Shown in pieces: positions 13,229-29,758 of a stretch of DNA of 64,000 nucleotides (position 1 is the first letter of the stretch; each line of letters begins with the position of its first letter). Origin of the DNA: Bacteroidota bacterium (GTDB taxonomy: Bacteria; Bacteroidota; Bacteroidia; Chitinophagales; Saprospiraceae); contig JAAEZH010000018.1 in NCBI GenBank assembly GCA_018222965.1, positions 1-64,000 on the forward strand. The letters are read 5' to 3'. The position numbers and the translations under genes were made by a program. The notes under the pieces are model-generated. The model searched no databases. It saw nothing but the letters and a program-made list of their open reading frames with translations, and was not told the origin of the DNA.

Positions 13229-13794
13229 AGTGGAATGTTGATTTCATAAGGTTGAATTTTTCCTGTCGACCATGCTGGCACAGCAGACGGGAGTATTTAA
13301 TGGATACGCTCCACCGCTGAAGGGGGAGCGGTCCGCTTGCGGACTGAGGAGTATAGCAACCAATCTTAGGGTCAAAACAGAAACTACGAATTGGTGTCGC
13401 TCCGCTGGAGCTTACCAGGCAAAATCGCAAAAATTCTACAAAGGTTTGGCTCCTCTGGAGCCATTAACCGCATTTACAGTAAGCCTCCAGAGGAGGCACA
13501 CCTTTGTAACAAAAAATATCGGATTCACTTTAAGCGCCGTAGGTGCGGCACCTGGTTTTATCCATAAGTTTATGTGACACTACACATAGGTATTCATTTT
13601 TAATTAAACCAACCAGCTAACCACCCACCCAACAATCTAACCTTTAAATACAGTTAATATTCCGGCTGAGACCCACCATATTCCAATTTAGACAGATCTA
13701 ATTCCGTTTCAGCCTTGTTAAGTTGTATGGATTTCACAAGTAGCTTATTTTTAAAAAGTTGTTGTATTCGCAGCAACTACATATGTAAGATTGA
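13229..13794. other. 566-bp gene-free stretch rich in hairpins
   Basis: The first half (about 13308-13550) is a dense series of hairpins: CGCTCC/GGAGCG, GTCCGC-tt-GCGGAC, GCTCC-gct-GGAGC and the large inverted repeat at 13438-13507. The second half (13551-13794) is AT-rich with no hairpin stack and probably carries the promoter of the YceI gene. No coding frame is convincing. Confidence 0.6.
13438..13507. repeat. inverted repeat element with 25-bp arms
   Basis: Arms at 13438-13462 and 13483-13507 begin ACAAAGGT and carry CTCCTCTGGAG; they match at 22 of 25 positions when one is reverse-complemented. Each arm contains its own inner hairpin (GGCTCC-tct-GGAGCC; GCCTCC-aga-GGAGGC), with compensating changes that keep the stems. 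This is typical of dispersed intergenic repeats in Bacteroidota. Confidence 0.6.
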
Positions 13795-14346
13795 ATGAAT
13801 CATCTAATAGTAATTTTGATAGCACAGTTGTTTGCCATTTCTTCCTTTGGTCAGGAGGGAGTATGGAAAGTAACAGAAGGAGATGTCCGTTTTGTTTCGG
13901 ATGCTCCTTTGGAACGGATCGAAGCTTCCACGAAGGAGGTAAACGGTGTTATGGTGATCTCAAGCAAGAAATTTGCTTTCAGTATTAGCAATCTGACGTT
14001 CAAGGGCTTTAACAGTCCGTTGCAGCAACAGCATTTTTACGAGAATTATATGGAGACCCATAAATTCAGCACCAGTACGTTTGTAGGAAGGATAGTTGAA
14101 GAGGTGGATCTGAGTGAAGCCGGAACCTACGAAATACGTGCCAAGGGGAAATTAAATATACATGGGGTAAGTAGGGAGCGGATTATCAAAGTAACCATCA
14201 CTTCAGATGGGGAGAGCTTTCGGGCCGAGAGTTATTTTACCGTTTTACTTGAAGAGCACGATATTGAAATCCCCAAAATCGTTCATCAAAAGATCTCCGA
14301 AGAAATTGAAATCCGGGTTGATGTTGTATTTAATCCGGGAGAATGA
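13795..14346 (+). CDS. YceI family protein (first copy)
   Basis: This 183-residue secreted protein has a signal peptide ending SSFG-Q (about 19). YceI lipocalin-like barrel features follow: EGDVRFVSDAPLERIEAS, HFYENYMETHKFSTSTFVG, GTYEIRAKGKLNIHGVSRE and a C-terminal EEHDIEIPKIVHQKISEEI. YceI proteins bind isoprenoid or other amphipathic ligands in the periplasm. The stop overlaps the start of the next gene (ATGA), indicating translational coupling to the sensor kinase. A paralogue closes the same gene run at 28218-28781. Confidence 0.9.
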   Translation: MNHLIVILIAQLFAISSFGQEGVWKVTEGDVRFVSDAPLERIEASTKEVNGVMVISSKKFAFSISNLTFKGFNSPLQQQHFYENYMETHKFSTSTFVGRIVEEVDLSEAGTYEIRAKGKLNIHGVSRERIIKVTITSDGESFRAESYFTVLLEEHDIEIPKIVHQKISEEIEIRVDVVFNPGE

Positions 14347-17222
14347 GAACAAACCTTTACCTGTTATTCCTGCTACTCTTTTCTACCGTCAGTCAATTGA
14401 CCGGGCAATCTCCCTTTTTCAGATCGTATGAATTGAAAGACCCGGTTTGGGGTGCTGCTTTTACCATTGTGTACCAGGATGCCGACCGCCAGCTGTACTT
14501 CGGATCAGAAACTGGTTTGTACAGCTTTAACGGGCTTGAATTTTTGCCTGTACCTCTGGAAGATTCTATGGATGTTGAGGTTACGGCAATATTTCAGGAT
14601 AGCAAGCGAAGATTTTGGGTGGGATTGAAAGATGGTCGTATTTATCAGGGCCGCCTGGGGAATTTGAAACCCTATGTTTTTTCCGCTTCCGCGAATGACA
14701 ACATGGCGATTACAGGCTTTGTAGAAGACAAGCAAGGCCAAATTTGGATTGCGACTTATGGCGCCGGTTTGTGGATGGATGACGGTCAGAGTCAATATGC
14801 TTTTGGGGAAGATGACGGCTTGTACGGACCAGACCTGTATGACATTTGCCTGGATCCGGAAAATCGGGTTTGGCTGGCAACAGACGGCGGAATAAATATC
14901 TGCCAATGGGAAAAGGAGTCCTTAAAAGTGGAATTACTAAACGGCAACAGCAATCTGCCGGATGATATCGTGCGTACCTTTTGCCCCGACTCCAAAGGCA
15001 ATATTTGGATCGGCACCTACGAGGGGGGCGTGTGTTTGTACGATCATCAACTGAAAAAGATTCGCAACCCGATCAATGACTGGGACCATGGTATTGTGCA
15101 TTCCCTAAGCATAGTTGAAGGCAGGGAATTGTGGATCGGAACCGAATCTTCCGGTCTCTGGCGGTATATTCTGGAAGAGGATCGGGTATTGCCCATTGAA
15201 GGTCCGGAAGGCCTGGAAAGGGCAAAGATTCACGATTTATTTATGGATAAGGAGGGCAATATTTGGGTCCTCAGTAATAATAATGGCTTGTTATCTGCCA
15301 ACAGGCAGTTTGAACAACTGGATATCCCTTTCGAAAATACGCAGGCACTGTTATTTGACAGCAAAGAACACCTCTGGGTGGGAAATCAGCAAGGCTTGTT
15401 TAGGCTCAATGATCAGCACCTGGATTTTATTCCGGTCTTCGACCGCGAAATTAATGTAATCAGTATTTATGAAGATCACTATGGAGTGATTTGGGTAGGC
15501 ACTTTTGGAGAAGGCCTGATTTTGTACGATCCGGTTTCAAACCTAAAAAAACAATTTTCCGAGTCTGATGGGCTGGCCAATGGAAGCATCTTGTCTATTG
15601 GAGGAAAAGAAGACCGGGTATGGCTGGCTACTCTCGGCGGCGTATCGGAAATCGACAATCGCAGGAACCTGCTCGAAAAAGACCAACTGGATATATTTAA
15701 TTTTGATCATGAATCCGGACTGGGCACCAATTTCATTTACCAGACTTTTATAGATAGTCAGGGCCGGGTATGGTTTGCAACGGATGGTCAGGGATTGTGT
15801 CTGTTGGAAAATGGAGGAATTACCTGTTATGGTCAGGCAATTGTAGATGGTGACACCCTCCCTATTCGAAATGTATATTCCATTACAGAAGATCAGCACG
15901 GAGGTATTTGGTTTAGCACGCCAAAGCAGGGTATTTTCTGTTTGGGGGAGAATGGGTTCGTGCACCTCAACCGGAAAGCAGGTATTAGAGATTTAGCCAT
16001 AACCGGGCTCGTTACCGATAAAAGCGGCAATATATTAATCATACACGATTCGGGTATCGATCTGCTGGATCCGGTGGATAAACACCTGATCTATTTTGAC
16101 GATGAAGTAGGAATCACCGACTTTAACCCAAATTTGAATGCCTTTTCAAAAACCAATGCAGGTGATATATGGATTGCAGATGAGAACAGCCTATTGCGGT
16201 ACACCTCTATGGAGGAGAACCTGGCCATTCACCCGATGACAAAAATTACCAGTGTGCTGGCTTCCTTTGAAGAAGTACCCTTTGACAGCATCCGTAATTT
16301 TGATCATACTCAAAATCATATTGTCATTAATTATGCCGGGCTTTGGTATACAGATCCTAAGGTGGTTCGCTATCGATACCAACTGGAAGGTTTTGATGAT
16401 GGATGGATTTATACCAAAGACCAGTCAGTAACTTATTCGAGTTTGCCACCGGGAGACTATATGTTTAAGGTCATGTCGACTGAAAATGAAGCCTTTGAAA
16501 ACGAACCGATCAAAAGCTATGCTTTCACCATTCAGAAACCCTTTTGGAGCACCTGGTGGTTTAATGTCCTTATGTTAATACTGATCTTTGGTGGATTATA
16601 TACCGTGATACAGATTCGCGATAAGCGCAAACAAAGAATTACCCAACTGCAAAGGGATCGAATTCAAAGTCAGCTGGATGCCCTGAAAAGCCAGATCAAT
16701 CCGCATTTTTTATTCAACAGTTTCAACACCTTAATTGCCATCATCGAAGATGATTCTGAGAAAGCGGTACAATATGTGGAGATCATGTCAGACTTTTACC
16801 GCTCCATATTACAATATCGGGAGCAGGAAGTTATCTCTCTGGAGGAAGAGATTAAGCTTGTCAAAGATTATTTGTTCTTGTTGAAAATGCGCTATGGAGA
16901 CAACCTCCAAATGGAGTTGAATACCAACGGAAGTAAAGCATTTCTTGCGCCCCTGACCTTGCAGATTTTGGTGGAAAATGCGGTTAAGCACAATGTCATA
17001 TCAAAGAGTAGACCTCTTCAGATTAGGATTAATAAAGAGGAACAATTTATAGTAGTGGAAAACAACAGCCAGCCAAAGCTCCGTGCTGAAAAATCAACGG
17101 GTTTTGGACTTAACTCCCTTAAAGCACAGTATTACAAGCTGGCTGGCAAATCTATCATCATCGAAAACGACAACAAGCACTTTGTAGTGAAGGTGCCCAT
17201 ACTGTCGGAAGAAGGAACCTGA
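14343..17222 (+). CDS. LytS-type sensor histidine kinase with two-component propeller sensor
   Basis: This 959-residue membrane protein has a signal peptide (1-21). About 600 residues of two-component regulator propeller repeats follow (recurring G-x-IWIGTYxxGL patterns such as GQIWIATYGAGLWM and GVIWVGTFGEGLILYD), then a Y_Y_Y domain (about 670-735). After one membrane helix (about 738-758, WWFNVLMLILIFGGLYTVI) comes a His_kinase (LytS/YehU) domain with SQINPHFLFNSFNTL, phospho-acceptor His788, and an ATPase part with LVENAVKHN and GFGLNSLK. It starts by a 4-base overlap with the YceI gene and is followed by its cognate LytTR regulator 11 bp later. It probably senses an envelope or extracellular signal for the downstream copper/cytochrome genes; the ligand is unknown. 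Confidence 0.92.
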   Translation: MRTNLYLLFLLLFSTVSQLTGQSPFFRSYELKDPVWGAAFTIVYQDADRQLYFGSETGLYSFNGLEFLPVPLEDSMDVEVTAIFQDSKRRFWVGLKDGRIYQGRLGNLKPYVFSASANDNMAITGFVEDKQGQIWIATYGAGLWMDDGQSQYAFGEDDGLYGPDLYDICLDPENRVWLATDGGINICQWEKESLKVELLNGNSNLPDDIVRTFCPDSKGNIWIGTYEGGVCLYDHQLKKIRNPINDWDHGIVHSLSIVEGRELWIGTESSGLWRYILEEDRVLPIEGPEGLERAKIHDLFMDKEGNIWVLSNNNGLLSANRQFEQLDIPFENTQALLFDSKEHLWVGNQQGLFRLNDQHLDFIPVFDREINVISIYEDHYGVIWVGTFGEGLILYDPVSNLKKQFSESDGLANGSILSIGGKEDRVWLATLGGVSEIDNRRNLLEKDQLDIFNFDHESGLGTNFIYQTFIDSQGRVWFATDGQGLCLLENGGITCYGQAIVDGDTLPIRNVYSITEDQHGGIWFSTPKQGIFCLGENGFVHLNRKAGIRDLAITGLVTDKSGNILIIHDSGIDLLDPVDKHLIYFDDEVGITDFNPNLNAFSKTNAGDIWIADENSLLRYTSMEENLAIHPMTKITSVLASFEEVPFDSIRNFDHTQNHIVINYAGLWYTDPKVVRYRYQLEGFDDGWIYTKDQSVTYSSLPPGDYMFKVMSTENEAFENEPIKSYAFTIQKPFWSTWWFNVLMLILIFGGLYTVIQIRDKRKQRITQLQRDRIQSQLDALKSQINPHFLFNSFNTLIAIIEDDSEKAVQYVEIMSDFYRSILQYREQEVISLEEEIKLVKDYLFLLKMRYGDNLQMELNTNGSKAFLAPLTLQILVENAVKHNVISKSRPLQIRINKEEQFIVVENNSQPKLRAEKSTGFGLNSLKAQYYKLAGKSIIIENDNKHFVVKVPILSEEGT

Positions 17223-17233
17223 CCTAAATAATT

Positions 17234-17983
17234 ATGGATATTCTAATTGTTGAAGACGAGCAAATCGCGGCGAAAAGGCTCGCTAAACTCATACAAGAGG
17301 TAGAGCCAAATGCCCGGATTCTGGACACTTTAGACAGTATTGAATCAACCGTTAACTGGTTTAATAAAGCGGAGGAATCGCCGGATCTTATTTTTCTGGA
17401 TATTCACCTGGCAGACGGCTCCAGTTTTGAAATATTTCAACTGGTGGATGTTGAGTGCCCGGTTATATTTAGTACAGCTTATGATGATTACGCCATTAAA
17501 GCCTTCAAAGTAAATGCCATAGATTACCTCCTGAAACCGGTTAAGAAACCCGAACTGCAGGAAGCTTTCCACCGGATGCACAATATTCGAGGGGCAAAAT
17601 CTTTAAACTACGCAGAACTGGCGCGGGAAATGAACCTGGTTTCGAGGCGCTTCCTGATTCGATTTGGGCAACAGCTAAAAGTGGTTCCCATTGAGGATGT
17701 GGCCTATTTCTTTACCAGCGATAAGATTACTTTTTTGGTCACTTTTGAAGGAAAGCGCTATCCTCTGGATCACTCGCTCGATACCCTGGAGGGCATGGTC
17801 AATCCAAAAGACTTCTTCCGAATAAACAGACAATATATTATCAATTTTAAGGCCATTCAGGATATGTATGCATATTCAAAATCCAGGGTGAAGATCGAGC
17901 TGGATCCATCTCATAATGAGGACCTCATCGTGAGCACCGAAAGATCGCCTCATTTTAAAAAATGGCTAACCGGGGAGCATTAA
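17234..17983 (+). CDS. LytTR-family response regulator
   Basis: This 249-residue protein has a receiver domain (1-115) with acidic pair ED7-8, phospho-acceptor Asp56 in DLIFLDIHLADG, and conserved Thr/Lys in FSTAYDDYAIKAF and YLLKPVKKPEL. A LytTR DNA-binding domain (about 145-248) follows, with VAYFFTSDKITFLVTFEGKR and FFRINRQYIINFKAIQ. It is the partner of the preceding kinase. LytTR proteins bind direct repeats upstream of target promoters; no such site was confidently seen in the 108-bp gap before the next gene. Confidence 0.94.
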   Translation: MDILIVEDEQIAAKRLAKLIQEVEPNARILDTLDSIESTVNWFNKAEESPDLIFLDIHLADGSSFEIFQLVDVECPVIFSTAYDDYAIKAFKVNAIDYLLKPVKKPELQEAFHRMHNIRGAKSLNYAELAREMNLVSRRFLIRFGQQLKVVPIEDVAYFFTSDKITFLVTFEGKRYPLDHSLDTLEGMVNPKDFFRINRQYIINFKAIQDMYAYSKSRVKIELDPSHNEDLIVSTERSPHFKKWLTGEH

Positions 17984-18091
17984 TCCGGCTCAGTACGGAA
18001 TATTTCCGGTTCGGGAATAAAAATACAGCAGGGTCTTCCATTTTGGGCACATTTACCTTTCAGAAAATCTTGATAACCCAATTTGGAAAAG

Positions 18092-21000
18092 ATGTACGCC
18101 AATCCACTGCGCACCTTTCTGGTGCTTCCCTTATTATGGTTGTTTGCTAATACTGCATATACACAAGGCTGTGAAGCAAATTTCACCTTCGAAAGTACGG
18201 GTATTACCATTCAATTTATTGATCTCTCTACCTCTGATGCCGGCGATCCGATCGTAAGCTGGGACTGGGATTTTGACGATGGCAGCGGATCCAGCCAGCA
18301 AAATCCAATTCATACTTTCCCGGAACCGGATAAGTATGACGTGGTCCTCACCATCACCACAGCCAGCGGGTGTACAGCAACTTTTGAGATCCGAATCGAA
18401 ACATGTGCATTTAATGTTACTTACTCAATAGGCAATTGTAATGCCAATGATGAGGTGCCGGTAACCTTCAATATTTCGGATATTTATGATAATGCAGATG
18501 ATATAAATATATCCCTGGATGGGGTTTTGATTCCCGGCAGTCCTTTCCAAATAGATGCAGCCAATCCGGTAAATATTACCGTGGATGTACCAGGTGACGG
18601 ATTAATGCATACACTGACTATCGTCTCTGAAGATATTACGACTTGTTCAGCAACAATAGACTTTACCGTACCGGATTGTGGTTCCAATTGTTTTCTGGGC
18701 AGTATGGCTGTTGCAATAGCCGGGGGCTCCACCCAAACCGTGCAGGTTGGAGACAACTTTTTTAGCCCGGTTAATACGACTATAGTAATTGGGGATGTCG
18801 TAGAGTTTCAATGGATAGGAGATGGACACTCTACTACCTCCGATGCCACTTCCGGACCCGATAGCTGGAACTCCGGAGAAATTGGAACCGGTTCTATTTA
18901 TCCGGTAACCATAACGAATCCGGGAGTGCATCCATATTATTGTATTCCACATGGTGGTCCTGGCGGATCCGGAATGGCCGGAACGATTGTGGCTAATTGT
19001 CCGGCTTCCGGGCAATTCATGCTTAACATTACCTTCAATACCACGATCGCTGATCCGGCAGGATACAATGTGTTGATCGATGGCGTTGTCCAACCAGGAA
19101 GTCCGCACAATTATAACGGTACCGGGCCCCAATCCGTAACGGCAAGTATCAGTGGCGATGGCCAATCACATGTCATTGAAATTCAGGATGTAGCAGTACC
19201 CAGCTGCATTGCAGACAGAACCTTCCTGGCTCCCGATTGCGGGGCCGCACCCGCCTGTAGTCTTTCAGTTACCGCGGTAGAAAATGGTCCCTGTAGTGCT
19301 CAGGATGAAGTGCCTGTTGACCTTACGGTGAATGCCATTAATCCCGGGCCAAATGGCTTTACGGTTTCAGTAGATGGTGTGCCACAGGGATCATATCCTT
19401 ATGATGCCTCCGGTTCTACTATGGTTACTATTCAGGTTCCGGGAGATGGACAGTCCCATACGATAACGGTTACCGATCAGGATGACAGCCAATGTACGGG
19501 CAGTACAACCATTACTACAACCAACTGTACCATACCGTGTAGCATAAGCAATGTTTCGGCGACAGCCGGAGCAGCTGCAACTCATGTCGTCCTGGTAGAA
19601 GATTTTCAATTTACCCCGGCCAACATCACCATCACTGCCGGTGATGTGGTAGAGTGGCAATGGGTAGGGGCAATTGATCACACAGCGACCTCGGATGCTG
19701 CAAGCGGGCCTGACAGCTGGGATAGTGGATTGCTGGGCCAGGGAGCAGTATATACTTCTCCGATATTGAGCACCGGTGTGCATCCGTATTACTGCATCCC
19801 ACACGGCGCACCGGGTGGTGTCGGCATGGCGGGAACGATCACAGTAGAACCGGATTGTACGAACGGGCTAGTCAGTGTATCAGTTAGCTTCAATGCAAGC
19901 GGTGGCGGCTTCAACGGCTACGAAATATTGGTAGACGGCACAAGCGCAGGGACCTTCGCGTACAGCGGAACAGGCACGGAAAATGCCGTAGTATCGGTTC
20001 CGGGCGATGGACAAAGTCACACGATTCTGATACAGGATGTAGACAACCCGGGATGTAGTGCAACCACGACCATCACAACTCCAGACTGTAACGCATCGAC
20101 CTGTCAGTTGACAGTTAGTGCTACAGAAACAGGCGGTTGCGATGCCCAGGATAATGTAAATGTAGAAGTAACAATAAACGATGTAGGGGGCGGAGCCGGC
20201 GGCTTTGAGGTATTTGTAGACGGAGCAAGTCAGGGCACCTTCTCCTACAGCGGCACAGGCACAACAATCATCAACCTGGATGTAACAGGCGACGGACAAA
20301 GCCACACAATCCTGATCCAGGATATAGACGATGCGCAATGTAATGCGACGACTACGGTAACCACCAGCAATTGTGTATTGCCTTGTTCTATAAACGGATT
20401 GAATTTGACCATTTTAGGTGGTGGAAATCCAGTGACTCATGTTGTTGAAGTTGTTGACTTTGATTTTATCCCACAAAATTTGATAGTAAGTACAGGGGAT
20501 ATAGTTCGCTGGGAGTGGACCGGCCAAATTGATCATACGGCAACTTCTGATGCTACCAGTGGACCAGATAGTTGGGACAGTGGATTGCTGGGACAAGGAG
20601 CCATTTATGAGGAAGTGATAGACCAGGATGGCCAACATCCATACTATTGCATTCCGCATGGTACACCCGGTGGCGTTGGCATGGCAGGCAATATTACAGC
20701 AATGCCTCCTTCGCCTTGTGTAGATGGTATGGTTAGCATTCAGTTGAGTTTCTCCCAAACCAATACGGGCAATTCGGGATACAATCTGTATGTAGATGGT
20801 TCCCTCGATAGTGGAAGTCCCTACACCTATGGAGGTTCCGGATCTTCAACTGTTACCATTACTTTGCCGGGTGATGGTCAGCAACATACAATCGAAATAG
20901 GAGATGTAGAGAATGGTAGCTGTTCAGCTACACAAACCATTACATTGCCTGATTGCCAGACTGGAGGTCCTTGTTCCCTTGAAGTAAATGCACTCAATAT

Positions 21001-24000
21001 CGGAGCTTGTGATACAAACAATGAAGTAGCCGTAGATCTGGAAGTCAATGCTTCTAATACAAGTACTGCCTTTAATTTGTATCTGGATGGAAACCTGTAC
21101 CCGGGCAGCCCATTTGATTATGATGCATCCGGAACGACCCTCCTAAGTATCGCAGTATCAGGGACCGGCACCATTAGAGAAGTGGTGGTTGCTGATATAG
21201 ACAGTACGACTTGTACAGACCTGATCACTTTCAGCGTCCCTTCCTGTGGACCACCCTGTGTGGTGGAGAACCTCCAGATAAGTACAGATCAGGCAGCTAC
21301 ACACATTGTTGAAGTCAGAGATTATGATTTCTTCCCGGCAGATATTGACGTGCTGGTAGGAGATACGGTTCGATTTGTATGGACGGGTGTGGTAGATCAT
21401 ACAACCACCTCCGATGCACTCAACGGTCCGGACAGTTGGGATAGCGGACTGTTGGGGCAGGGTGCCGTATACGATGTTGTGATTCAGGAAGCAGGGATGC
21501 ATCCTTATTACTGCATACCTCATGGGGGCCCTGGTGGAATCGGAATGGCTGGAACCATTGAAGCTTTTGATGGCTGTGATCAGGGGAATGCCCTCGTGGT
21601 TGCAGGTTTTGATGTGACCAATGGGTCTCCGCTTGGATACAATGTTTTCCTGGATGGAGAACTCCTGGCCGGACCATTCACTTACGATAATCCGAATGGA
21701 TACAATTCTGTGTTGCTCACTATACCTGGAGATGGACTAAATCACACCCTCACTATCCAGGATCTGGAGGTAACATTCTGTGCGCTTACGACAATTTTTA
21801 CAGCGCCTGAATGCGAAGTCACTTGTGAAGTGCAGGGAATGGAGGCACTGGTTGGAGCCGACATTGTGCACATCGTGGAGGTATTGGATTATGAATTTGC
21901 ACCGATTGATTTGGATGTACGGACCGGAGAAACCATCCGATTTGTCTGGAACGGAATCATTCCGCATACAACTACCTCTGATGCAACCAGTGGTCCGGAT
22001 AGCTGGGATAGCGGATTGCTGGGGCAAGGGGCAGCCTATGAATTAATCCTGGAGAACGCCGGAGATCATCCTTACTATTGCATTCCGCACGGAGGCCCTG
22101 GCGGGATAGGCATGGCTGGAAATATCCATGCAACCGAAGATTGCGCAGATGGTATGGTAGCCGTTCAGATCAATTTCTCCATCACCAGCGGAAGTGCCAC
22201 AGGATACAATGTGTTTGTTGATGGTGTTCAGGTACCCGGCGGCCCTTTTGCCTATGATGATCCTGCCGGCATGAATAGCCAGGTGGTATTTGTCGAAGGT
22301 GACGGAGATTTACATCTAATAACGGTACAGGATACCGAAACGACATTTTGTGCCTCTACCGTTCAGGTTTCAGTGCCAGATTGTTCGGCTAGTTGTGCGA
22401 TCTCCAATGTCGATATACAATTCCCGGAAACGGGCCCTCAGGTGCATGAAGTAGAAGTAGGCGATTTCTTCTTCGAACCCACAATGATCAATATCGCGTT
22501 GGGCGATACCGTTCGCTTTATTTGGACCGGTGCGGTGGATCACACAACTACTTCCGACGCAACGAGCGGTCCGGATGTTTGGGACAGCGGGCTTATTGGC
22601 AATGGAAGCATCTTCGATGTGATCCCGCAAACTACCGGTACACATCCTTATTACTGCACCCCGCACGGTGGCCCCGGAGGCATTGGCATGGCCGGAGTAA
22701 TCGAAGTAAATGAAGGCAGCGATTGTGTAGATGGACAGATCATGGCAACGATTGCCTTTGATATTTCAGAACAGGGAAGCACCGGATTTAATGTATTTAT
22801 TGATGGCCTTGCGGCGAATGGCAATCCGTATCCATATTCAGGCTCCGGAATGGAAAGCCTGGAACTGCCGCTCGACGGCGACGGTCAGCTTCACGAATTA
22901 ATTGTGGCTGATGCCGATGATCCGTTTTGTGCTGATACCATTTCCTATCAAGCCCCCTTGTGTGAAAGCACGAATTGTACACTGGTCGCGGAGGCAGCTG
23001 CTGTCAGCGGTTGCGAGGACAACAACCTCATTGAATACGAATTGACCATTACTTCCTCCAATACCGGAGCCGGTGGTTTTGATGTGACCGTCGATGGCGA
23101 TTTGTTGCCAGGCAGTCCGTTTTCCTACGATATCGATGAAATCACCACCGTTACGGTCTTCCTGACCGGAGATGGCGGAACCCGACTCATTGAGGTGCAG
23201 GATGTAGATAGTTTAAACTGTTCTGTCAGTCTGGAGGTTGAAACCGAAGATTGTGCGCAGCCCTGCAGTATGAACCTCAGTGCCACTCAGATTTCCGGTT
23301 GCGATGCAGATGGATTCCTGACTTATGATATAACCGTCAGTGCCGGCAATTTTGGCGCACAGGGCTTCAGCTTAAATCTGGATGGAACAGCTGTGCCCGG
23401 GTCGCCCTTTGACTATACAGGCGGTATAACTACCATCCCGGTTCAAATACCGGGAGACGGGGGTATGCACGAATTGATCGCTGCAGACATAGACTCTGTA
23501 AGCTGTGTGGCTAATTTGATGATTGAAGTAATCGACTGTTCCGGAGATTGTAGCCTTGATGTACACGATATCAGCATCAATGTCCCTGGGGTTCAGCAAG
23601 TAGATGTGCTGGATTTTGTCTTCGAACCGGAAGTAGTAACAGTTGCCACCGGTGATACCGTTCGCTTTGTTTGGCTGGGTGAGATTCCGCATACCACTAC
23701 CTCAGATGCAAGCTCCGGAGCTGATGTTTGGAACTCGGGACTCCTTGGTCAGGGCTCGATATACGATCTGGTGCTGGAAACAGCAGGCAGCCATCCTTAT
23801 TATTGCGTGCCGCACGGTGCACCGGGAGGTATCGGAATGGCTGGTACAATTATAGCTGAATCTCCCTGCGATGATGGCATGCTGAATGTATTGTTGGAAT
23901 TTACCACTGAAAATGCCGGACCAGATGGCTTTAATGTTTTTCTCGATGGAACCGCTCAAGCTGGTAATCCTTACCCTTATGATGTCAATGGCAATCACAG

Positions 24001-25138
24001 CCTGGTGTTTGAATTGCCGGGCGACGGGCAGGAACATGAGATACTTATTGCCGATGCGCTGGATGCGGATTGTATGCTGGATACCCTTTTGCTAATGCCG
24101 GATTGTGATGATCTGTGTTTTGGGTATGAAGCAGACTTTAGCTACGAAATCGACCACTCCAATTTAAGTATTGACTTGACTGATCTGTCATCCTCCGGCA
24201 CGGATACCTGGGAGTGGACATTTGGGGATGGAGAAACATCCAACCTGCAAAACCCCGTACATACATTCGCGGAAGCGGGAACCTATGAAATATGCCTGAT
24301 TGCTACAGATACTAATTTGGACTGTAGCGATACCCTTTGTATTGACATAGAAGTGGGCGGCTTTTTCTGTGAAGCTTCCTTCACCTTCGAAAGCGATGGC
24401 TTAAGCCTGTTCCTGGGAGACATTTCCAACAGCTCTGAGACGATCACCAATTGGGTTTGGACAGTAGATGGAAGCCTGATTGCCGAAGGAGATCCATCCA
24501 CGAGTTACACCTTCCCGGAGTTGGGCGTCTATGAGGTTTGTCTGACAATCTTTGCCGGAGCCTGTGAGGACGATACCTGTATGACTATCGACCTCAGCGA
24601 TCCATGCCTGCTTTTCGAACCAGCCTTTGAGTATACCGTTGATCATCAGCAACTGGAAGTTGAATTCGAGGATCTGACCAGCGGCAACCCGCATCTGTGG
24701 TTATGGGGCTTTGGCGACGGATTTACCTCCAATGACCAGCATCCCGTGCATCAATACGATGAGCCTGGTGTGTACAATGTGTGCCTGCTGGTGCAGGATA
24801 CCATCAATAACTGCAACAAATCAGCCTGTGCGTTGGTAGAAGTGGGCATGGTAGGAACAACCTCCCAACAGCTTACAAATTTCGACCTGATTCTGCATCC
24901 AAATCCGGGTCCTGTTGGTCTGGAAGGCTGGTTTTTAGAAGGGCTTTCGCCGAATGACTTTGGCGAGCAGCTTGAATACGAGATCTTCGGAGTTGATGGC
25001 AGAACCTATAGCGAAGGCACTATGCCGGGAGAAGATAAAATTTTCCTCCAGGCCTCAGAAAAACTGAGCAGTGGTGTTTATTTCATCCAGATTCGCTCCG
25101 ATGAGCGACTGTATCAGGGTAAAGCAATAATTCAATAA
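18092..25138 (+). CDS. giant T9SS-secreted protein with seven blue-copper (cupredoxin) domains
   Basis: This 2348-residue protein starts with a signal peptide (ending AYT-Q, about 25) and one PKD domain (about 27-110). It then has 13 Ig-like repeats of about 80-90 residues (signature GDGQSHTIxIxD...C...PDC) interleaved with seven plastocyanin/azurin-like domains, then three PKD domains (about 2010-2255) and a T9SS type A sorting domain beginning LILHPNPGPVG. Each cupredoxin copy has a type-1 copper ligand set: His in DHTTTSD-type motifs, then YYC-x2-H-x7-M. The ligand Cys are residues 284, 568, 853, 1141, 1330, 1522 and 1905. Expected role: surface-attached copper protein for electron transfer or copper binding. 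The ATG at 18092 begins the signal peptide; an in-frame TTG lies three codons upstream. The CusB-like gene starts 3 bases after the stop. Confidence 0.9.
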   Translation: MYANPLRTFLVLPLLWLFANTAYTQGCEANFTFESTGITIQFIDLSTSDAGDPIVSWDWDFDDGSGSSQQNPIHTFPEPDKYDVVLTITTASGCTATFEIRIETCAFNVTYSIGNCNANDEVPVTFNISDIYDNADDINISLDGVLIPGSPFQIDAANPVNITVDVPGDGLMHTLTIVSEDITTCSATIDFTVPDCGSNCFLGSMAVAIAGGSTQTVQVGDNFFSPVNTTIVIGDVVEFQWIGDGHSTTSDATSGPDSWNSGEIGTGSIYPVTITNPGVHPYYCIPHGGPGGSGMAGTIVANCPASGQFMLNITFNTTIADPAGYNVLIDGVVQPGSPHNYNGTGPQSVTASISGDGQSHVIEIQDVAVPSCIADRTFLAPDCGAAPACSLSVTAVENGPCSAQDEVPVDLTVNAINPGPNGFTVSVDGVPQGSYPYDASGSTMVTIQVPGDGQSHTITVTDQDDSQCTGSTTITTTNCTIPCSISNVSATAGAAATHVVLVEDFQFTPANITITAGDVVEWQWVGAIDHTATSDAASGPDSWDSGLLGQGAVYTSPILSTGVHPYYCIPHGAPGGVGMAGTITVEPDCTNGLVSVSVSFNASGGGFNGYEILVDGTSAGTFAYSGTGTENAVVSVPGDGQSHTILIQDVDNPGCSATTTITTPDCNASTCQLTVSATETGGCDAQDNVNVEVTINDVGGGAGGFEVFVDGASQGTFSYSGTGTTIINLDVTGDGQSHTILIQDIDDAQCNATTTVTTSNCVLPCSINGLNLTILGGGNPVTHVVEVVDFDFIPQNLIVSTGDIVRWEWTGQIDHTATSDATSGPDSWDSGLLGQGAIYEEVIDQDGQHPYYCIPHGTPGGVGMAGNITAMPPSPCVDGMVSIQLSFSQTNTGNSGYNLYVDGSLDSGSPYTYGGSGSSTVTITLPGDGQQHTIEIGDVENGSCSATQTITLPDCQTGGPCSLEVNALNIGACDTNNEVAVDLEVNASNTSTAFNLYLDGNLYPGSPFDYDASGTTLLSIAVSGTGTIREVVVADIDSTTCTDLITFSVPSCGPPCVVENLQISTDQAATHIVEVRDYDFFPADIDVLVGDTVRFVWTGVVDHTTTSDALNGPDSWDSGLLGQGAVYDVVIQEAGMHPYYCIPHGGPGGIGMAGTIEAFDGCDQGNALVVAGFDVTNGSPLGYNVFLDGELLAGPFTYDNPNGYNSVLLTIPGDGLNHTLTIQDLEVTFCALTTIFTAPECEVTCEVQGMEALVGADIVHIVEVLDYEFAPIDLDVRTGETIRFVWNGIIPHTTTSDATSGPDSWDSGLLGQGAAYELILENAGDHPYYCIPHGGPGGIGMAGNIHATEDCADGMVAVQINFSITSGSATGYNVFVDGVQVPGGPFAYDDPAGMNSQVVFVEGDGDLHLITVQDTETTFCASTVQVSVPDCSASCAISNVDIQFPETGPQVHEVEVGDFFFEPTMINIALGDTVRFIWTGAVDHTTTSDATSGPDVWDSGLIGNGSIFDVIPQTTGTHPYYCTPHGGPGGIGMAGVIEVNEGSDCVDGQIMATIAFDISEQGSTGFNVFIDGLAANGNPYPYSGSGMESLELPLDGDGQLHELIVADADDPFCADTISYQAPLCESTNCTLVAEAAAVSGCEDNNLIEYELTITSSNTGAGGFDVTVDGDLLPGSPFSYDIDEITTVTVFLTGDGGTRLIEVQDVDSLNCSVSLEVETEDCAQPCSMNLSATQISGCDADGFLTYDITVSAGNFGAQGFSLNLDGTAVPGSPFDYTGGITTIPVQIPGDGGMHELIAADIDSVSCVANLMIEVIDCSGDCSLDVHDISINVPGVQQVDVLDFVFEPEVVTVATGDTVRFVWLGEIPHTTTSDASSGADVWNSGLLGQGSIYDLVLETAGSHPYYCVPHGAPGGIGMAGTIIAESPCDDGMLNVLLEFTTENAGPDGFNVFLDGTAQAGNPYPYDVNGNHSLVFELPGDGQEHEILIADALDADCMLDTLLLMPDCDDLCFGYEADFSYEIDHSNLSIDLTDLSSSGTDTWEWTFGDGETSNLQNPVHTFAEAGTYEICLIATDTNLDCSDTLCIDIEVGGFFCEASFTFESDGLSLFLGDISNSSETITNWVWTVDGSLIAEGDPSTSYTFPELGVYEVCLTIFAGACEDDTCMTIDLSDPCLLFEPAFEYTVDHQQLEVEFEDLTSGNPHLWLWGFGDGFTSNDQHPVHQYDEPGVYNVCLLVQDTINNCNKSACALVEVGMVGTTSQQLTNFDLILHPNPGPVGLEGWFLEGLSPNDFGEQLEYEIFGVDGRTYSEGTMPGEDKIFLQASEKLSSGVYFIQIRSDERLYQGKAIIQ
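24942..24954 (+). repeat. iterated 13-mer GGCTTTCGCCGAA (copy 6)
   Basis: Exact copy in the T9SS-domain coding part of the giant gene (LSPN). Confidence 0.8.
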
Positions 25139-25140
25139 TT

Positions 25141-26424
25141 ATGCAAACAAAGTATATAGCCATATTAGTGACGGGAGTTGTGCTTGGGTTGTTGGGTCAA
25201 AAAATCATGGAAAGAAGTTTTGATGCAAAAGATCCAAATTCCGGGCCGGCTACCTGTCTGAACGGAGAAACAGAATCGGTATATGCCTGCAGCATGCACC
25301 CGCAAACATCCCACAGCCAACCGGGTAATTGTCTGGTTTGTGGCATGAAGCTCGTGGACAAACAAGTGAGTTCATTTTTTAATCCGGACCTGCTTCCCTT
25401 GCAAGCGGGAGAGGTGGAGCAAATGAATGTGCGAACCATGCTGGTAGGAGAGAAGCCGGAAAAAGGAGGCAACAGCCTCCGCCTTCGCGGTAAGCTGGAA
25501 CCGGATCAAAGCCGCCTGTATCAGCAGGTGTGTCATTTGCCCGGACGTATTGAAAAACTTTATGTAACCGAAGAAGGAAGCCGGGTGCGGAAAGGACAGG
25601 CAATCGCATCAATTTACAGCAAAGAACTGGTTGCCGCTCTGGAAACTTACCATTTCAATAAGCGGGCGGAGAGTCTTGCTCGATCTGCACTCAATAATCT
25701 AAAGGCCTGGAAAGTGCCTGCTTCTTTTTACACAAAAGTAGATATGACCGGAGATTACCACATACCGGCCGATGTATATTCCGACTTTGACGGAATTGTC
25801 TGGAAAAAGCGAGTTGTGGAAGGTTCTTATGCCATGAATACACATATGGGCCATCCCACCGTTTTATACGATGTGGCAGATCTCTCTGTTGTTTGGGCGG
25901 TTTTGGAAGTCTTTGAGTCGGAGCTTCGTTATGTAAAAGAAGGAATGACCATTGATCTGGAAGTGCCTGCCTATCCGGGCGAAACCTTTAGCGGGAAAAT
26001 CATTCATATTGGAGATGAGGTAGATCCGGTTACCCGTACCATTCCGGTAAGGGTCAGCGTGGCAAATAAGGAGTGGCGATTAAAGCCCGGGATGTTGGTT
26101 GAGGCCGAACCCACCACTTCTGTTGCTGCTCCAAAAAGCATCGTGATTCCAAAATCTGCTATTCTGTGGACCGGCGAGCGGTCGGTAGTTTATGTTCGAA
26201 AACCAGCGTACGATCGTCCGGTATTTGCCTTCACGGAAGTGAAAACTGGAATGGACATGGGAGAAAACATTGTTATCGTATCCGGTATTAAAGCCGGCGA
26301 TGAGGTCGTTGTACAAGGGGCTTTTATGCTTGATGCCAGTGCGCAATTGCAAGGCAGAAAGAGTATGATTCAGACCCTGGATAGCAAAAAATCGGAGGAA
26401 GACCACATGGTCGCGAATCAATAA
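25141..26424 (+). CDS. CusB/HlyD-type periplasmic adaptor with heavy-metal-binding module
   Basis: This 427-residue protein has an N-terminal membrane anchor (7-20). A heavy-metal-binding domain follows (about 48-72, Y-x-C50-S-M52-H53-P ... C64-x2-C67-x-M69), then the membrane-fusion-protein fold: barrel-sandwich hybrid halves (HLPGRIEKLYVTEEGSRVRK; YSDFDGIVWKKRVVEGSY), a short alpha hairpin, a beta-barrel (GMTIDLEVPAYPGETFSG) and a membrane-proximal domain. Such proteins link an inner-membrane RND pump (CusA) to an outer-membrane channel (CusC) for Cu(I)/Ag(I) export. No pump or channel gene is in the window. It begins 2 bp after the giant cupredoxin gene, suggesting co-transcription and a copper role. 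Confidence 0.9.
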   Translation: MQTKYIAILVTGVVLGLLGQKIMERSFDAKDPNSGPATCLNGETESVYACSMHPQTSHSQPGNCLVCGMKLVDKQVSSFFNPDLLPLQAGEVEQMNVRTMLVGEKPEKGGNSLRLRGKLEPDQSRLYQQVCHLPGRIEKLYVTEEGSRVRKGQAIASIYSKELVAALETYHFNKRAESLARSALNNLKAWKVPASFYTKVDMTGDYHIPADVYSDFDGIVWKKRVVEGSYAMNTHMGHPTVLYDVADLSVVWAVLEVFESELRYVKEGMTIDLEVPAYPGETFSGKIIHIGDEVDPVTRTIPVRVSVANKEWRLKPGMLVEAEPTTSVAAPKSIVIPKSAILWTGERSVVYVRKPAYDRPVFAFTEVKTGMDMGENIVIVSGIKAGDEVVVQGAFMLDASAQLQGRKSMIQTLDSKKSEEDHMVANQ

Positions 26425-26524
26425 TCCGGGTTCAGATGGGCTTTATTCCGGTTCGTCAAACATTACTTTTATACGACCTGGAATGCCCGTACATTTATAT
26501 TGAAATAAAAATGAATAAGCCTCA

Positions 26525-27265
26525 ATGAAAGGAAGCACCCTTCTTTTTGCCAGCTTTTTAGCCTTCTTGATTGGATCCCAGATGTCTTGTAAACACGATC
26601 CTTTTCTTACAGATATTGACCCGGATCCAACGGACACCATCGATAATCCGGTGGATACCACCATGCAGGGAGAACCCTGCGATCCGGATCTCGTATACTT
26701 CGAATTGGATGTACTTCCAATTCTTATATCCAATTGTGCTTTTAGCGGATGTCACAATGCCGCTACGGCAACAGAAGGGGTCGTATTAGAAGATTTTCAG
26801 TCTGTGATTCAAACCGCTGATGTGGAAGCATTCGACCTGGATGGAAGTGATCTGTATGAGGTGATCACCGAAGATGATCCGGACAAACGCATGCCGCCGC
26901 CACCTGAAAATCCGCTGACCCAAGAGCAAATTAATACCATCAGCAAATGGATCTTGCAGGGTGCGCAAAACCTGGAATGTGATCCGGGAGTTGATTGTGA
27001 TACAGAGAATGTGAGTTATGCGGCTATTATTCGTCCCTTGTTGGATAATTCCTGTGTGGGTTGTCACGGAGGCAGTGTGCCTTCCGGCGGAATATCGCTC
27101 GAGACTTACGCAGGAGTAAAGGGAGTTGCTGATTCCGGACAATTGTACGGCGCGGTTGCCTGGGAGCCTGGTTTTTCACAAATGCCACAAGGCGGTAATC
27201 AATTGCCTCAATGTAATATTGACCAGATTCAATCCTGGATCGATGCCGGCGCGCCTGAAAATTAG
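26525..27265 (+). CDS. di-haem c-type cytochrome lipoprotein (planctomycete-cytochrome-like)
   Basis: This 246-residue protein has a lipoprotein-type signal with Cys22 (SQMS-C). It contains two haem-binding modules of the planctomycete cytochrome C (PSCyt1) kind. The first has C71-AFSG-C76-H77, a CX4CH spacing, with Met123 (RMPPPP) as possible axial ligand; the second has canonical C177-VG-C180-H181 with Met220 (SQMPQGG). Both modules share the pattern VLPIL...C...CH...G-x-L-x-x-Y/F, then a helix ending SKWILQGA or QSWIDAGA. It is probably membrane-anchored and carries electrons. It lies 100 bp after the CusB-like gene and 10 bp before a one-haem relative. Confidence 0.85.
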   Translation: MKGSTLLFASFLAFLIGSQMSCKHDPFLTDIDPDPTDTIDNPVDTTMQGEPCDPDLVYFELDVLPILISNCAFSGCHNAATATEGVVLEDFQSVIQTADVEAFDLDGSDLYEVITEDDPDKRMPPPPENPLTQEQINTISKWILQGAQNLECDPGVDCDTENVSYAAIIRPLLDNSCVGCHGGSVPSGGISLETYAGVKGVADSGQLYGAVAWEPGFSQMPQGGNQLPQCNIDQIQSWIDAGAPEN

Positions 27266-27275
27266 ACCCAAATAT

Positions 27276-27653
27276 ATGATAATGCAAAAATCCATCAAGC
27301 TTCTTAGCATCCTGGTTCTGGCTGTATTATTGATTCCCGCTTGCTATTACGACGTGGAAGAAGAACTATATCCCACAAATAACTGCGATCTGGAATCTGT
27401 GACCTATACCGATGTAATCCTTCCGATTTTGGAAGAAAACTGTTTTGTCTGTCACAATGCGGCAGCTCCGCAGGGTGGTGTCCAACTGGAAGGATATTCC
27501 TCACTAAAGATTTACGTTGATTCCGGGCAGCTTCTGGGCGCCATTAAACACGAAAGTGGGTTCTCTCCCATGCCTCAGGGACAGCCTCAACTTGATGAGT
27601 GCACCATATCCAAGTTTCAAACCTGGATAGATGAAGGTGCGATGAATAACTAA
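27276..27653 (+). CDS. mono-haem c-type cytochrome lipoprotein
   Basis: This 125-residue protein has a lipoprotein signal (LLIPA-C23) and one haem module: ILEEN-C56-FV-C59-H60, GGVQLEGYSSLK, candidate axial Met99 in FSPMPQG, and the closing helix FQTWIDEGA. It is closely similar to the second module of the preceding gene, so it is probably a duplicate. The ATG at 27276 is chosen (an ATG at 27282 is also possible); the longer frame would overlap the previous gene by 140 bp. Confidence 0.85.
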   Translation: MIMQKSIKLLSILVLAVLLIPACYYDVEEELYPTNNCDLESVTYTDVILPILEENCFVCHNAAAPQGGVQLEGYSSLKIYVDSGQLLGAIKHESGFSPMPQGQPQLDECTISKFQTWIDEGAMNN

Positions 27654-27710
27654 TAGGGTATAAAAGGCAATCTATAAACCTGATCCAATACCCAAAAATT
27701 GACAACGATT

Positions 27711-28133
27711 ATGTCTGGTAAGAAAAAAATCTTAGTCCTGGCTTTAGTAGGACTGGTAGTTGCTGCTGTGGCAGGATATGCCATCTACAACAAGCCCCAT
27801 CAAAATATGACCAAAGCCAAAGCGGATCATTCGCTTAGTTCCACCGAGTTGTTTGCGGCATTTGAAGCCGACGAACAGGCTGCCAATGAAAAATTCCTGG
27901 GGAAGATCGTTGAAGTAAACGGTACCATCCAGGAGGTAAAACTGGAGGAGGGCGTTCAAAAACTCATCCTCGAAGGCGATGGAATGATGTTTGGCGTGAT
28001 CTGCAATTTGGATGAGCTGACCGATTCACACCGGGACGATTTCCAGGTTGGGGAAGCGGTAAGCCTGAAATGCGAATGTACCGGGCTGTTGATGGATGTC
28101 GTAATGAAAAGATGTGTAGAAACACACTCTTAA
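27711..28133 (+). CDS. membrane-anchored OB-fold (tRNA_anti-like) protein
   Basis: This 140-residue protein has an N-terminal membrane helix (about 6-24) and a periplasmic OB-like domain: ELFAAFEADEQAANEKFLGK, IVEVNGTIQEVK, GVICNLDELTD and VSLKCECTGLLMDVVMKRC. This matches the tRNA_anti-like family that occurs in envelope proteins and is not known to bind tRNA there. Three Cys cluster in the last third. The ATG at 27711 is preferred to an in-frame TTG at 27699. The link to the cytochrome genes is by position. Confidence 0.75.
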   Translation: MSGKKKILVLALVGLVVAAVAGYAIYNKPHQNMTKAKADHSLSSTELFAAFEADEQAANEKFLGKIVEVNGTIQEVKLEEGVQKLILEGDGMMFGVICNLDELTDSHRDDFQVGEAVSLKCECTGLLMDVVMKRCVETHS

Positions 28134-28188
28134 AGAAATATCACCTGTAACACTGGCAGTAAATCTGCCTGATTTTAATCTGTATTAA

Positions 28189-28201
28189 TTCGGCGAAAGC
28201 C
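28189..28201 (-). repeat. iterated 13-mer GGCTTTCGCCGAA (copy 7)
   Basis: Exact copy on the minus strand, ending 16 bp upstream of the second YceI start codon. Confidence 0.8.
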
Positions 28202-28217
28202 GGTTCAAAAACCAAAA

Positions 28218-28781
28218 ATGAATTTCATGAAAATCCAAATGCTTGCACTGGGTGTGCTGATGTTGAGTGCTTTTTCCGTTGATGCTCAGCGCTATTTTAC
28301 CCGGGAAGGGGAAGTTGATTTTTATTCTGAAGCCCCGCTTGAAAAAATTGAAGCACATAATAATTCCGCCACTTCCGTACTGGATATCAGCTCCGGAAAG
28401 CTAGAATTTGCTGTGCTTATTAAGGCTTTCCAATTTGAAAAAGCGCTCATGCAAGAGCACTTTAATGAAAATTACATGGAGAGCGACGAGTTCCCAAAAT
28501 CTGTTTTCAAAGGGAATATTGACAACCCGGAAGCAGTAAAATGGGATACTGATGGTACGTATCCGGTCAATGTGAGTGGCAAACTTACCATTCACGGAGT
28601 GACCAATGATGTCAGCACTACCGGAGAAATCACCATCGAGAACGGACAAATTTCTGCCCATTCTGTATTCGTGGTGGCAGTAGCCGATTACGATATTGAA
28701 ATCCCGGCTGTTGTTCGGGAAAACATCGCCAAGGAAGTTGAAATCCGGGTAGATGTAGATTACCAGGAGCTTAAAAAATAA
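28218..28781 (+). CDS. YceI family protein (second copy)
   Basis: This 187-residue secreted protein has a signal peptide ending FSVDA-Q (about 23). YceI barrel features: REGEVDFYSEAPLEKIEAH, LMQEHFNENYMESDEFPKS, VNVSGKLTIHGVTNDV and VADYDIEIPAVVRENIAKEV. It is clearly a paralogue of the 13795-14346 product and lies 9 bp before the DUF5777-like barrel gene, a pairing that suggests a shared envelope role. Confidence 0.9.
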   Translation: MNFMKIQMLALGVLMLSAFSVDAQRYFTREGEVDFYSEAPLEKIEAHNNSATSVLDISSGKLEFAVLIKAFQFEKALMQEHFNENYMESDEFPKSVFKGNIDNPEAVKWDTDGTYPVNVSGKLTIHGVTNDVSTTGEITIENGQISAHSVFVVAVADYDIEIPAVVRENIAKEVEIRVDVDYQELKK

Positions 28782-28790
28782 CGACTCAGT

Positions 28791-29708
28791 ATGTTTTTTC
28801 ATCCATCCATGACCCGCTTTTTCAGGCCTTTATGCCTAATGTGTTTCATCTTGCTTGTCGGCACTGGTTTGCAGGCACAGGAAGACGATGATCTGCTGTC
28901 TCTTTTGGAAGAGGAGCCCACTATCGACTACACAACGGCAGCCTTTAAAACCAATCGTGTAATCAATTTACACTCCATCGAAAATACGTCTAAAGGCGTG
29001 CTGGATTTTAAAATATCCCACCGCTTTGGTTTTTTGAATGGAGGATTTTATGAGCTGTTCGGACTGGATAACGCGAGTATCCGTCTGGGCCTCGATTATG
29101 GCATTACCGATCAGTTACAGATTGGTTGGGGGAGAAGTAGTTATGAAAAAACATACGATGGCTACCTGAAGTGGAAATTCCTCCGGCAAAGTTCGGGAGC
29201 GCGTAAAATGCCCTTTTCAGCTGCCTTTTTTGCCTCTACAGCGATTCAGACCCTGAAGTGGCCCAATCCGGATCGGGAGAATTTATTTACCTCCCGCATG
29301 TATTACACCATGCAGCTTATTCTGGGGAGCAAGATCAATGACAATTTTAGTCTCCAGATATCGCCCACCGTGGTACACCGGAATTTAGTGGCAACTGCCG
29401 CAGAAGCCAATGACGTTTATGCGCTGGCTTTCGCCGGAAGGGTGAAGATCACTAATCGACTGGCAATCAATGCAGAGTATATATATGCCCTGCCCAATCA
29501 ACTGGCTCCGGATTTTAGAAATTCAATTTCAATCGGGGTAGACCTCGAAACCGGTGGTCACGTGTTCCAATTGCATTTTACCAATTCCACTTCCATGATA
29601 GAAAAAGGCTTCATCGCAGAAACAGTAGGAAACTGGGCCGATGGTGGGGTGCATTTCGGCTTTAATGTTTCCCGCGTGTTTACTGTGGTGAAGCCTAAAT
29701 TTGATTAG
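28791..29708 (+). CDS. DUF5777-like outer-membrane beta-barrel protein
   Basis: This 305-residue protein has a signal peptide ending GLQA-Q (about 29), then EDDDLLSLLEEEP, a conserved AAFKTNRVINLHSIENTSKG segment, and a barrel-like series of amphipathic strands (LDFKISHRFGFLNGG, IRLGLDYGITDQLQIGWG, FQLHFTNSTSMIEKGFI, VHFGFNVSRVF). This matches the Bacteroidota DUF5777 barrel family, function unknown. It is the last gene of the copper/haem run and is followed by a terminator. Confidence 0.8.
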   Translation: MFFHPSMTRFFRPLCLMCFILLVGTGLQAQEDDDLLSLLEEEPTIDYTTAAFKTNRVINLHSIENTSKGVLDFKISHRFGFLNGGFYELFGLDNASIRLGLDYGITDQLQIGWGRSSYEKTYDGYLKWKFLRQSSGARKMPFSAAFFASTAIQTLKWPNPDRENLFTSRMYYTMQLILGSKINDNFSLQISPTVVHRNLVATAAEANDVYALAFAGRVKITNRLAINAEYIYALPNQLAPDFRNSISIGVDLETGGHVFQLHFTNSTSMIEKGFIAETVGNWADGGVHFGFNVSRVFTVVKPKFD

Positions 29709-29758
29709 AATTACGATAGTCCTTTACCAGGGACTAAAGTTTGGGTCCTATTTTGTTT

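Follow-up and report, generated by a model that had tools for sequence, protein, structure and literature searches.

The ten-gene locus

The window, by which we mean the whole 64,000-nucleotide stretch of DNA analysed, carries ten co-directional genes on its forward strand between positions 13795 and 29708, running from a YceI gene to a DUF5777 gene; all ten open reading frames described in the sequence-only reading of this DNA were recovered. The first, YceI_a (13795-14346), encodes a periplasmic lipocalin-like protein, placed by Pfam and a tree in the YceI clade particular to the module described here, and is paired with a sensor kinase gene (14343-17222), which it overlaps by the 4 bp reported earlier (14343/14346). 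Pfam gives the kinase a Reg_prop propeller, a Y_Y_Y domain and a LytS-type His_kinase domain, with a hydrophobic segment recognized by eye; a response regulator with Response_reg and LytTR domains follows (17234-17983; Pfam). The fourth gene (18083-25138, starting at either TTG 18083 or ATG 18092) encodes a predicted secreted protein with PKD domains and seven plastocyanin-type cupredoxin domains, seen as seven Copper-bind stretches in Pfam, and the type-1 copper ligands H..C..H..M are complete in all seven. The earlier description of a seven-cupredoxin T9SS protein thus stands for the cupredoxins, whereas the T9SS tail is weak and reaches neither curated cut-off (13.8 bits in Pfam, where 27 are required, and 20.3 bits with TIGR04183, where 23 are). 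After a 2-bp gap (25138/25141), also as reported, comes the gene of a CusB-like adaptor with a heavy-metal-binding domain, HMBD (25141-26424; HlyD_D23 179.8 bits, and HMBD, in Pfam).

The downstream half begins with Cyt1 (26525-27265), a predicted PSCyt1-like di-haem lipoprotein with CX4CH and CX2CH motifs, assigned from these motifs, Pfam and alignment, and Cyt2 (27276-27653), a predicted mono-haem lipoprotein with a single CX2CH. Both members of the claimed pair of c-haem lipoproteins have their motifs; Cyt2 scores 16.5 bits against PSCyt1, under the cut-off of 22, yet its CX2CH is present and it can be aligned with its relatives. Cyt2 also has a conserved acidic stretch, C-Y-Y-D-x-E-E-x-L-Y, after its presumed lipidated cysteine. 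Since acidic stretches at this position resemble the surface-export signals of Bacteroidota lipoproteins, Cyt2 may be located on the outside. An N-anchored OB-fold protein with a nearly invariant CxGxxxD (27711-28133; tRNA_anti-like (OB) 82.7 bits, and a structural model) is followed by YceI_b (28218-28781), which Pfam and the tree identify as the core YceI of the module, and by the DUF5777 protein (28791-29708), a predicted 12-strand outer-membrane barrel that covers profile positions 1-247 of PF19089 at 321.2 bits against a cut-off of 23.1. The two window YceI proteins reach 41.6 and 52.7 bits against the PF04264 cut-off of 23.7; profile searches of the host genome gave six YceI and two DUF5777 matches. 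The largest gaps inside the run are 99 bp (17983-18083), 100 bp (26424-26525) and 84 bp (28133-28218), and the run is closed, as had been proposed, by an intrinsic-terminator-like hairpin of 13 pairs with a T-rich tail (29759-29788, forward strand).

Three further features lie near the locus. GC-rich short inverted repeats, recognized by eye, occupy the intergenic region 5' of the first YceI gene (13260-13550); a short tandem repeat lies around and after the terminator (29741-30074), where mechanical open reading frames read (TEP)n or (NQR)n; and another Reg_prop-LytS-type kinase gene is found at 36919-39972.

Conservation across Bacteroidota

DUF5777 is present in 54 of the 60 genomes of a close set that includes the host and in 65 of 158 genomes sampled over the phylum, three of these 65 being weak matches; the closest named DUF5777 loci belong to Saprospiraceae. 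A set of 91 non-redundant DUF5777 loci from relatives and named genomes, with six duplicates dropped, contained the gene cluster of the haem protein in 74 cases, YceI in 72 and the OB protein in 51, counted anywhere in the stretch. Many Saprospiraceae have the order carrier, OB, YceI, DUF5777, as do Flavobacteriaceae including Polaribacter (L118) and Maribacter (L130); variants of it come from Cytophagales (L100, L103) and from one genome of the Bacteroidales (L105). In 60 more loci from distant genomes of the phylum, 40 of them hand-picked, partly for cupredoxin, fused or unusual DUF5777 copies, a hand count found DUF5777 accompanied by a same-strand carrier and YceI in 41; the OB protein occurred in just two.

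Overall, 169 distinct DUF5777 copies were available, of which 23 had too little upstream sequence and were excluded, and the 146 with more than 2 kb were counted. With one rule applied to test and control counts, and profiles built from module members, 124 of 146 copies had a same-strand carrier no more than 2.6 kb away, compared with 3 of 278 control genes taken from these loci (119 and 2, respectively, by profile match alone), and 116 compared with 9 had a YceI nearby; these counts are not independent events, with close relatives among the loci and a purpose-made, crude gene caller. Carrier and YceI were found together in 102 copies and the OB protein in 55, and an independent count restricted to the haem motif found 76 of 94, compared with 17 of 291 controls. 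The sequence-only reading had linked these genes by their order and spacing in one genome; their co-occurrence proves to be conserved over the phylum, and together with the carrier exchange, fusions and shared LytTR-type element described below this extends the functional link beyond the single locus. On these sequence comparisons, the unit of interest appears to be a conserved core of a redox lipoprotein, often an OB-fold protein, a YceI and a DUF5777 barrel.

The core is not uniform. The 22 of 146 DUF5777 copies that have no same-strand carrier within 2.6 kb count against an electron relay, although three of them (L118, L151, L219) have a carrier on the opposite strand. YceI and DUF5777 occur without a nearby haem gene in four Flammeovirga loci and in Arenibacter (L123), and several DUF5777 paralogues (for example L073-L075) have no adjoining YceI. 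Genome G037 has two module-clade YceI genes (loci L270 and L271), one beside a haem protein and the other beside an OB protein, and gave no DUF5777 match, so the barrel is not obligatory.

Some arrangements stand apart from the common order. The second DUF5777 of the host (genome G000, contig C52, L073: 12704-15934) is accompanied by two haem proteins and a divergent PF06491 (Disulph_isomer) gene, with neither YceI nor OB protein near, and L074 and L075 are alike. Two DUF5777 modules are present in each of L117, L118 and L119, arranged divergently with a LytTR gene between them in the last two. In several loci of Flavobacteriia and Cytophagales the first module gene encodes a Lipoprotein_15 or CHRD protein (L120:6970-8574, L102:7624-8412, L107:8252-8689).

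Exchangeable carriers and haem-barrel fusions

The slot before YceI-DUF5777 is filled by three unrelated redox folds, with c-haem proteins in 112 of the 124 carrier loci. Single-domain cupredoxins with complete ligands take this place in eight loci (L187, L188, L189, L190, L198, L200, L202, L226), in L198 together with a haem protein; their lipoboxes were identified by eye, and the three of the eight submitted to Pfam were all above cut-off. Rieske [2Fe-2S] proteins fill the slot without a haem protein in L191, L195, L199, L201 and L220, and are found alongside a haem protein in L221 and on the opposite strand in L219; four were submitted to Pfam and all were above cut-off. A Rieske label on a cupredoxin open reading frame of L198 (18 bits) was spurious and was discarded. 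Plastocyanin and cytochrome c6 substitute for each other in photosynthesis. The property that unrelated one-electron proteins have in common is electron transfer, and we therefore read the swapping of carriers as pointing to an electron-transfer role.

In seven genomes from four families (G088, G339, G340, G342, G345, G346, G347) DUF5777 carries an N-terminal CX4CH domain as a fusion, and these fusions have no adjoining YceI. The window DUF5777 contains no haem motif, the fusion being confined to these seven other genomes.

Predicted structures of the barrel and the OB protein

Modelled alone, the DUF5777 barrel has 12 strands (pLDDT 93.5). Among the folds detected by Foldseek, its nearest solved neighbours are FapF (Z 17.7, rmsd 4.0 over 214 residues) and KdgM (Z 17.7, 2.0 over 167), followed by NanC (Z 17.4, 2.8 over 186), with FadL types lower. 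Taken from the model, these matches indicate a porin-like barrel, not a function; they also weigh against an electron relay, as a barrel of porin-like fold may carry a substrate instead. A PDB sequence search with the DUF5777 alignment returned one row at chance level (E 0.76), and one with YceI_b a weak YceI row (5ixg, E 0.0022). With loop sides assigned by the usual N-in rule, conservation is lower in the extracellular loops (mean 2.16 bits) than in the strands (2.75 bits), except in loops 1, 2 and 6, and for this reason no docking face can be named. Many Arg, Lys, Gln, His and Tyr residues of DUF5777 are conserved, as is the segment preceding strand 1. The OB protein model (pLDDT 92.4) is closest to 3f1z (Z 12.3, 2.8 over 107 residues); its match to CcmE (Z 9.6, rmsd 3.1 over 94 residues) is tied with those to the OB domains of aminoacyl-tRNA synthetases.

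A dedicated YceI clade and the sensor triplet

In a tree of 101 YceI sequences, the 60 module YceI proteins sampled from 137 and all eight YceI_a proteins fall into one clade with support of 0.97-0.98. Only one of 30 non-module sequences joins them, these 30 being the best PF04264 match of most genomes and hence biased to canonical YceI; the exception, from G040, is a member of a separate YceI_a-kinase-LytTR unit. Module YceI proteins entered the tree at 40 bits or more with the module profile, a rule that left out two sequences near DUF5777 (L204, 33 bits; L141, 27 bits and on the opposite strand), and the L219 YceI (44 bits) was placed outside the module clade. At 20 further YceI places the module profile scored either 16-36 or 113-253 bits, with no match at L260 and L261.

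The triplet of YceI_a, kinase and LytTR genes is found in 12 loci, the window included: seven near the module (the window, L038, L043, L049, L052, L093, L096) and five apart from it (L256, L258, L266, L269, L273). A YceI of the module clade thus belongs to the sensor triplet itself, including in the loci apart from the module.

LytTR-type direct repeats and probable transcription units

LytTR regulators act on 9-bp direct repeats, for which there is a general consensus. An unbiased 21-bp repeat count of 6-mers recurring at 19-24 bp in 28 upstream regions gave the pattern CCCGTTCAG-N12-CCCGTTCAG; the 28 regions are from Saprospiraceae, so matches in this family are partly circular and the flavobacterial ones are not. 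In its 21-bp phase and with at most 3 mismatches, the repeat has 18 unique sites in 2.49 Mb of loci and none in one shuffle (at 4 mismatches, 42 against 17), and by hand count 15 of the 18 precede module or sensor genes. In flavobacterial modules with a divergent LytTR gene beside them, weaker repeats (scores 5.7-19.3) stand before the opening gene, which encodes a Lipoprotein_15 or CHRD protein (L111, L112, L120, L121, L122, L130, L107/L109, L114, L115). At a score cut of 14, 5 of 161 non-training targets and 3 of 1091 others were hit; two of these three are themselves the first gene of a module (L121, Lipoprotein_15) and a gene near a module (L131).

The window has three such repeats, all on the forward strand. 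The first (13683-13712), 82 bp before the YceI_a gene, is the weakest, with mismatches to the foreign consensus at 5 of 18 positions and a half-site score of 11.8, and it is absent from the genome-wide list for a widened pattern. The second (17985-18014), 68 bp before the cupredoxin gene, has 4 mismatches to the foreign consensus and is the sole 1-mismatch match to the widened pattern in the 5.48-Mb genome. The third (26427-26456), 68 bp before Cyt1, has 5 mismatches, and 2 to the widened pattern; congener G001 (L078) has a 2-mismatch repeat before its Cyt1. The widened pattern was picked after the window sites had been seen, and its 72 genome matches, against 30 for a backward control, are mostly background. 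Counting both strands, the 64 kb contain eight matches of at least this quality, a density that predicts about 0.05 matches for the three gaps (765 bp, one strand), where three are observed. Ranked by a position weight matrix (PWM) built without them, the gap sites come second, third and sixth of 14 window hits.

Phased 9-bp direct repeats thus precede the target genes, as in a LytTR regulon, although the window sites are weaker than those elsewhere; their 4-5 mismatches, and the position of the top PWM site inside the DUF5777 gene, count against the electron-relay reading. The three LytTR-like sites in gaps suggest that the locus is probably not one operon but three co-regulated units. A scan with the general LytTR half-site did no better than shuffles (the lowest fraction reaching the observed score was 0.15). 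The Bacteroidota-type promoter pattern TTTG...TAnnTTTG was not found before the genes tested, and sigma-70-like sites numbered 19, below the shuffle mean of 30.9.

A model for the module

Our analysis suggests a model in which the locus encodes a regulated outer-membrane electron-transfer module, linking a YceI-bound redox lipid, an exchangeable carrier at DUF5777 and the outer surface; we consider this rather probable. YceI_b would hold a redox lipid, menaquinol or an oxidized lipid, in the periplasm and trade electrons with a carrier, which would dock at or in the DUF5777 barrel; through the barrel, electrons would reach, or arrive from, the outer leaflet and the surface. In this species the seven-cupredoxin protein would lie furthest out in the carrier chain, its copper perhaps loaded with the help of the CusB-like adaptor. 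YceI_a, the kinase and the LytTR regulator would sense the state of the envelope and switch on the three units, the regulator presumably binding the direct repeats. To judge from the sequences, the most constant parts are the dedicated-clade YceI lipocalin and the 12-strand barrel, and the carriers look like lipoproteins. The earlier suggestion of electron transfer across the envelope thus gains support from the phylum-wide carrier-YceI-DUF5777 association, the three exchangeable carrier folds, the fusions and the shared LytTR-type element; its copper part does not. The pairing of a YceI with a cytochrome has a precedent in BcnA-LcoA (PMC9113575) and was counted in favour of the relay.

A bolder form of the model is possible, if somewhat unlikely: the DUF5777 barrel and a dedicated, quinone-carrying YceI would be another, independently evolved kind of outer-membrane electron conduit, a generic socket for plug-in carriers of the haem, copper or iron-sulphur type. 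Present in much of the phylum and governed by a conserved LytTR switch, it would take electrons from a lipid shuttle in the periplasm out to the surface.

Three more specific purposes overlap much with the electron-transfer module as the best explanation, and with one another in probability. The first, unlikely as a full account but the best-placed of the three, is defence against lipid radicals, in which lipid peroxyl radicals or oxidized quinones are reduced at the outer membrane in the manner proposed for BcnA-LcoA, with the carriers supplying electrons to the lipocalin and the barrel opening access to outer-leaflet lipids. PMC9113575 describes YceI lipocalins with isoprenoids or ubiquinone-8 and increased lipid peroxidation in bcnA and lcoA mutants; the dedicated YceI adjoining 116 of 146 DUF5777 copies and the FadL-type and KdgM-type barrels among the structural neighbours point the same way. 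The COX1 match in 65 of 65 DUF5777 genomes would fit oxygen users but is uninformative, as 151 of the 158 sampled genomes have COX1 anyway. Against this purpose, the ten window genes include no cytochrome b561, and defence alone leaves the secreted seven-fold cupredoxins and the haem-barrel fusions that lack YceI unexplained.

The second purpose is extracellular electron transfer, likewise an improbable complete account, in which the module would resemble Cyc2 or MtrCAB on a smaller scale, as a porin-cytochrome system serving an external donor or acceptor, or secreted oxidoreductases. The haem-barrel fusions recall the Cyc2 layout (PMC8406198), and multi-cupredoxin proteins are encoded upstream in the window, L048, L078, L079, L084 (Neolewinella agarilytica DSM 24740) and L131, in all but the window truncated at the end of the locus. 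In L079, L082, L084 and L131 the module is adjoined by genes of a thioredoxin-like and a CXXCH protein, with a direct repeat upstream of the L131 pair; the CXXCH protein has T9SS-tail and Cu2_monoox_C matches, all below cut-off, and the pair is possibly an electron acceptor. On the other side, 1-3 haem motifs per locus and 12 strands compare with the 26 strands and decahaem cytochromes of MtrCAB.

Redox-coupled uptake, in which DUF5777 would import a small molecule such as a quinone or flavin for YceI to receive and the carrier to reduce or oxidize, is more doubtful still. The 12-strand substrate porins KdgM and NanC, ahead of the FadL-type channels, are among the best structural matches, and the conserved polar and aromatic residues and pre-strand segment of DUF5777 are in keeping with it; however, any barrel of such size would match, at a row identity of 5-14%, and no inner-membrane transporter was seen in the core.

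Copper or silver handling, the other role suggested for the locus, is very improbable despite the seven cupredoxins and the CusB-like adaptor with its metal-binding module: none of the 11 RND pump (ACR_tran) matches in the genome lies on the window contig (C16), so that ordinary Cus-type efflux was rejected; among the 91 loci, only congener G001, besides the host itself, has a close CusB-like gene (505 bits) next to the module, other CusB-labelled matches scoring 17-41 bits, and the cupredoxin and CusB-like genes are accessories; and the predominance of haem in the carrier slot led copper to be rejected as the general theme.

Comparison with known systems

A search that was thin in subscription journals found no literature naming DUF5777, for which Pfam gives a name and no function, and searches that paired YceI with the combinations cytochrome c/LytTR, Rieske/cupredoxin or plastocyanin/LytTR turned up no description of the module. 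Its regulatory element resembles known LytTR sites, by their general consensus, in its 9-bp repeats, 12-bp spacer and GTT core, and differs in its first base, C rather than T/A; it is associated with a response regulator in Saprospiraceae and, in Flavobacteriia, with a LytTR protein that has a weak, sub-cut-off Cache match. With CusCBA efflux the locus shares a CusB-like adaptor with a heavy-metal-binding domain, but here the adaptor sits between carriers and the contig has no RND pump.

YceI structures often contain isoprenoids or ubiquinone-8, and BcnA, a YceI protein, and the cytochrome b561 LcoA of Burkholderia guard membranes against lipid peroxyl radicals; the authors of PMC9113575 suggest that the cytochrome re-reduces a quinone in the lipocalin. 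Both systems link a YceI lipocalin, of a family associated with isoprenoid quinones, genetically to a redox partner in an envelope function. The partner in the module is a c-haem, cupredoxin or Rieske protein instead of a b561 (Pfam finds no b561 gene beside the YceI genes among the ten of the window), and the module has three additional parts: the barrel in the outer membrane, the OB protein and the LytTR sensor.

Cyc2 has a single haem domain on a 16-strand barrel and is supported as an outer-membrane iron oxidase (PMC8406198). The seven fusion genomes share its N-terminal mono-haem domain on a barrel, whereas DUF5777 has 12 predicted strands in the window model, the window haem proteins are separate from the barrel, and the unfused form is accompanied by YceI. 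MtrCAB and MtoAB/PioAB likewise combine an outer-membrane barrel with haem partners, on the same source, although with a 26-strand barrel and decahaem cytochromes; the window, with its 12 strands and at most two haem motifs per protein, contains no large barrel with a multihaem insert of this type.

With DUF5777 linked to carriers, a widespread family of outer-membrane proteins and one clade of YceI would become redox machinery open to testing, with a predicted regulon and a defined DNA element, and the question of YceI and quinones becomes approachable where barrel, carrier and sensor come together. In our analysis the module appears to be a variant of the outer-membrane cytochrome-barrel systems, with electron transfer itself as the predicted function, and to join the YceI-lipocalin theme of BcnA-LcoA with the haem-barrel theme of Cyc2.
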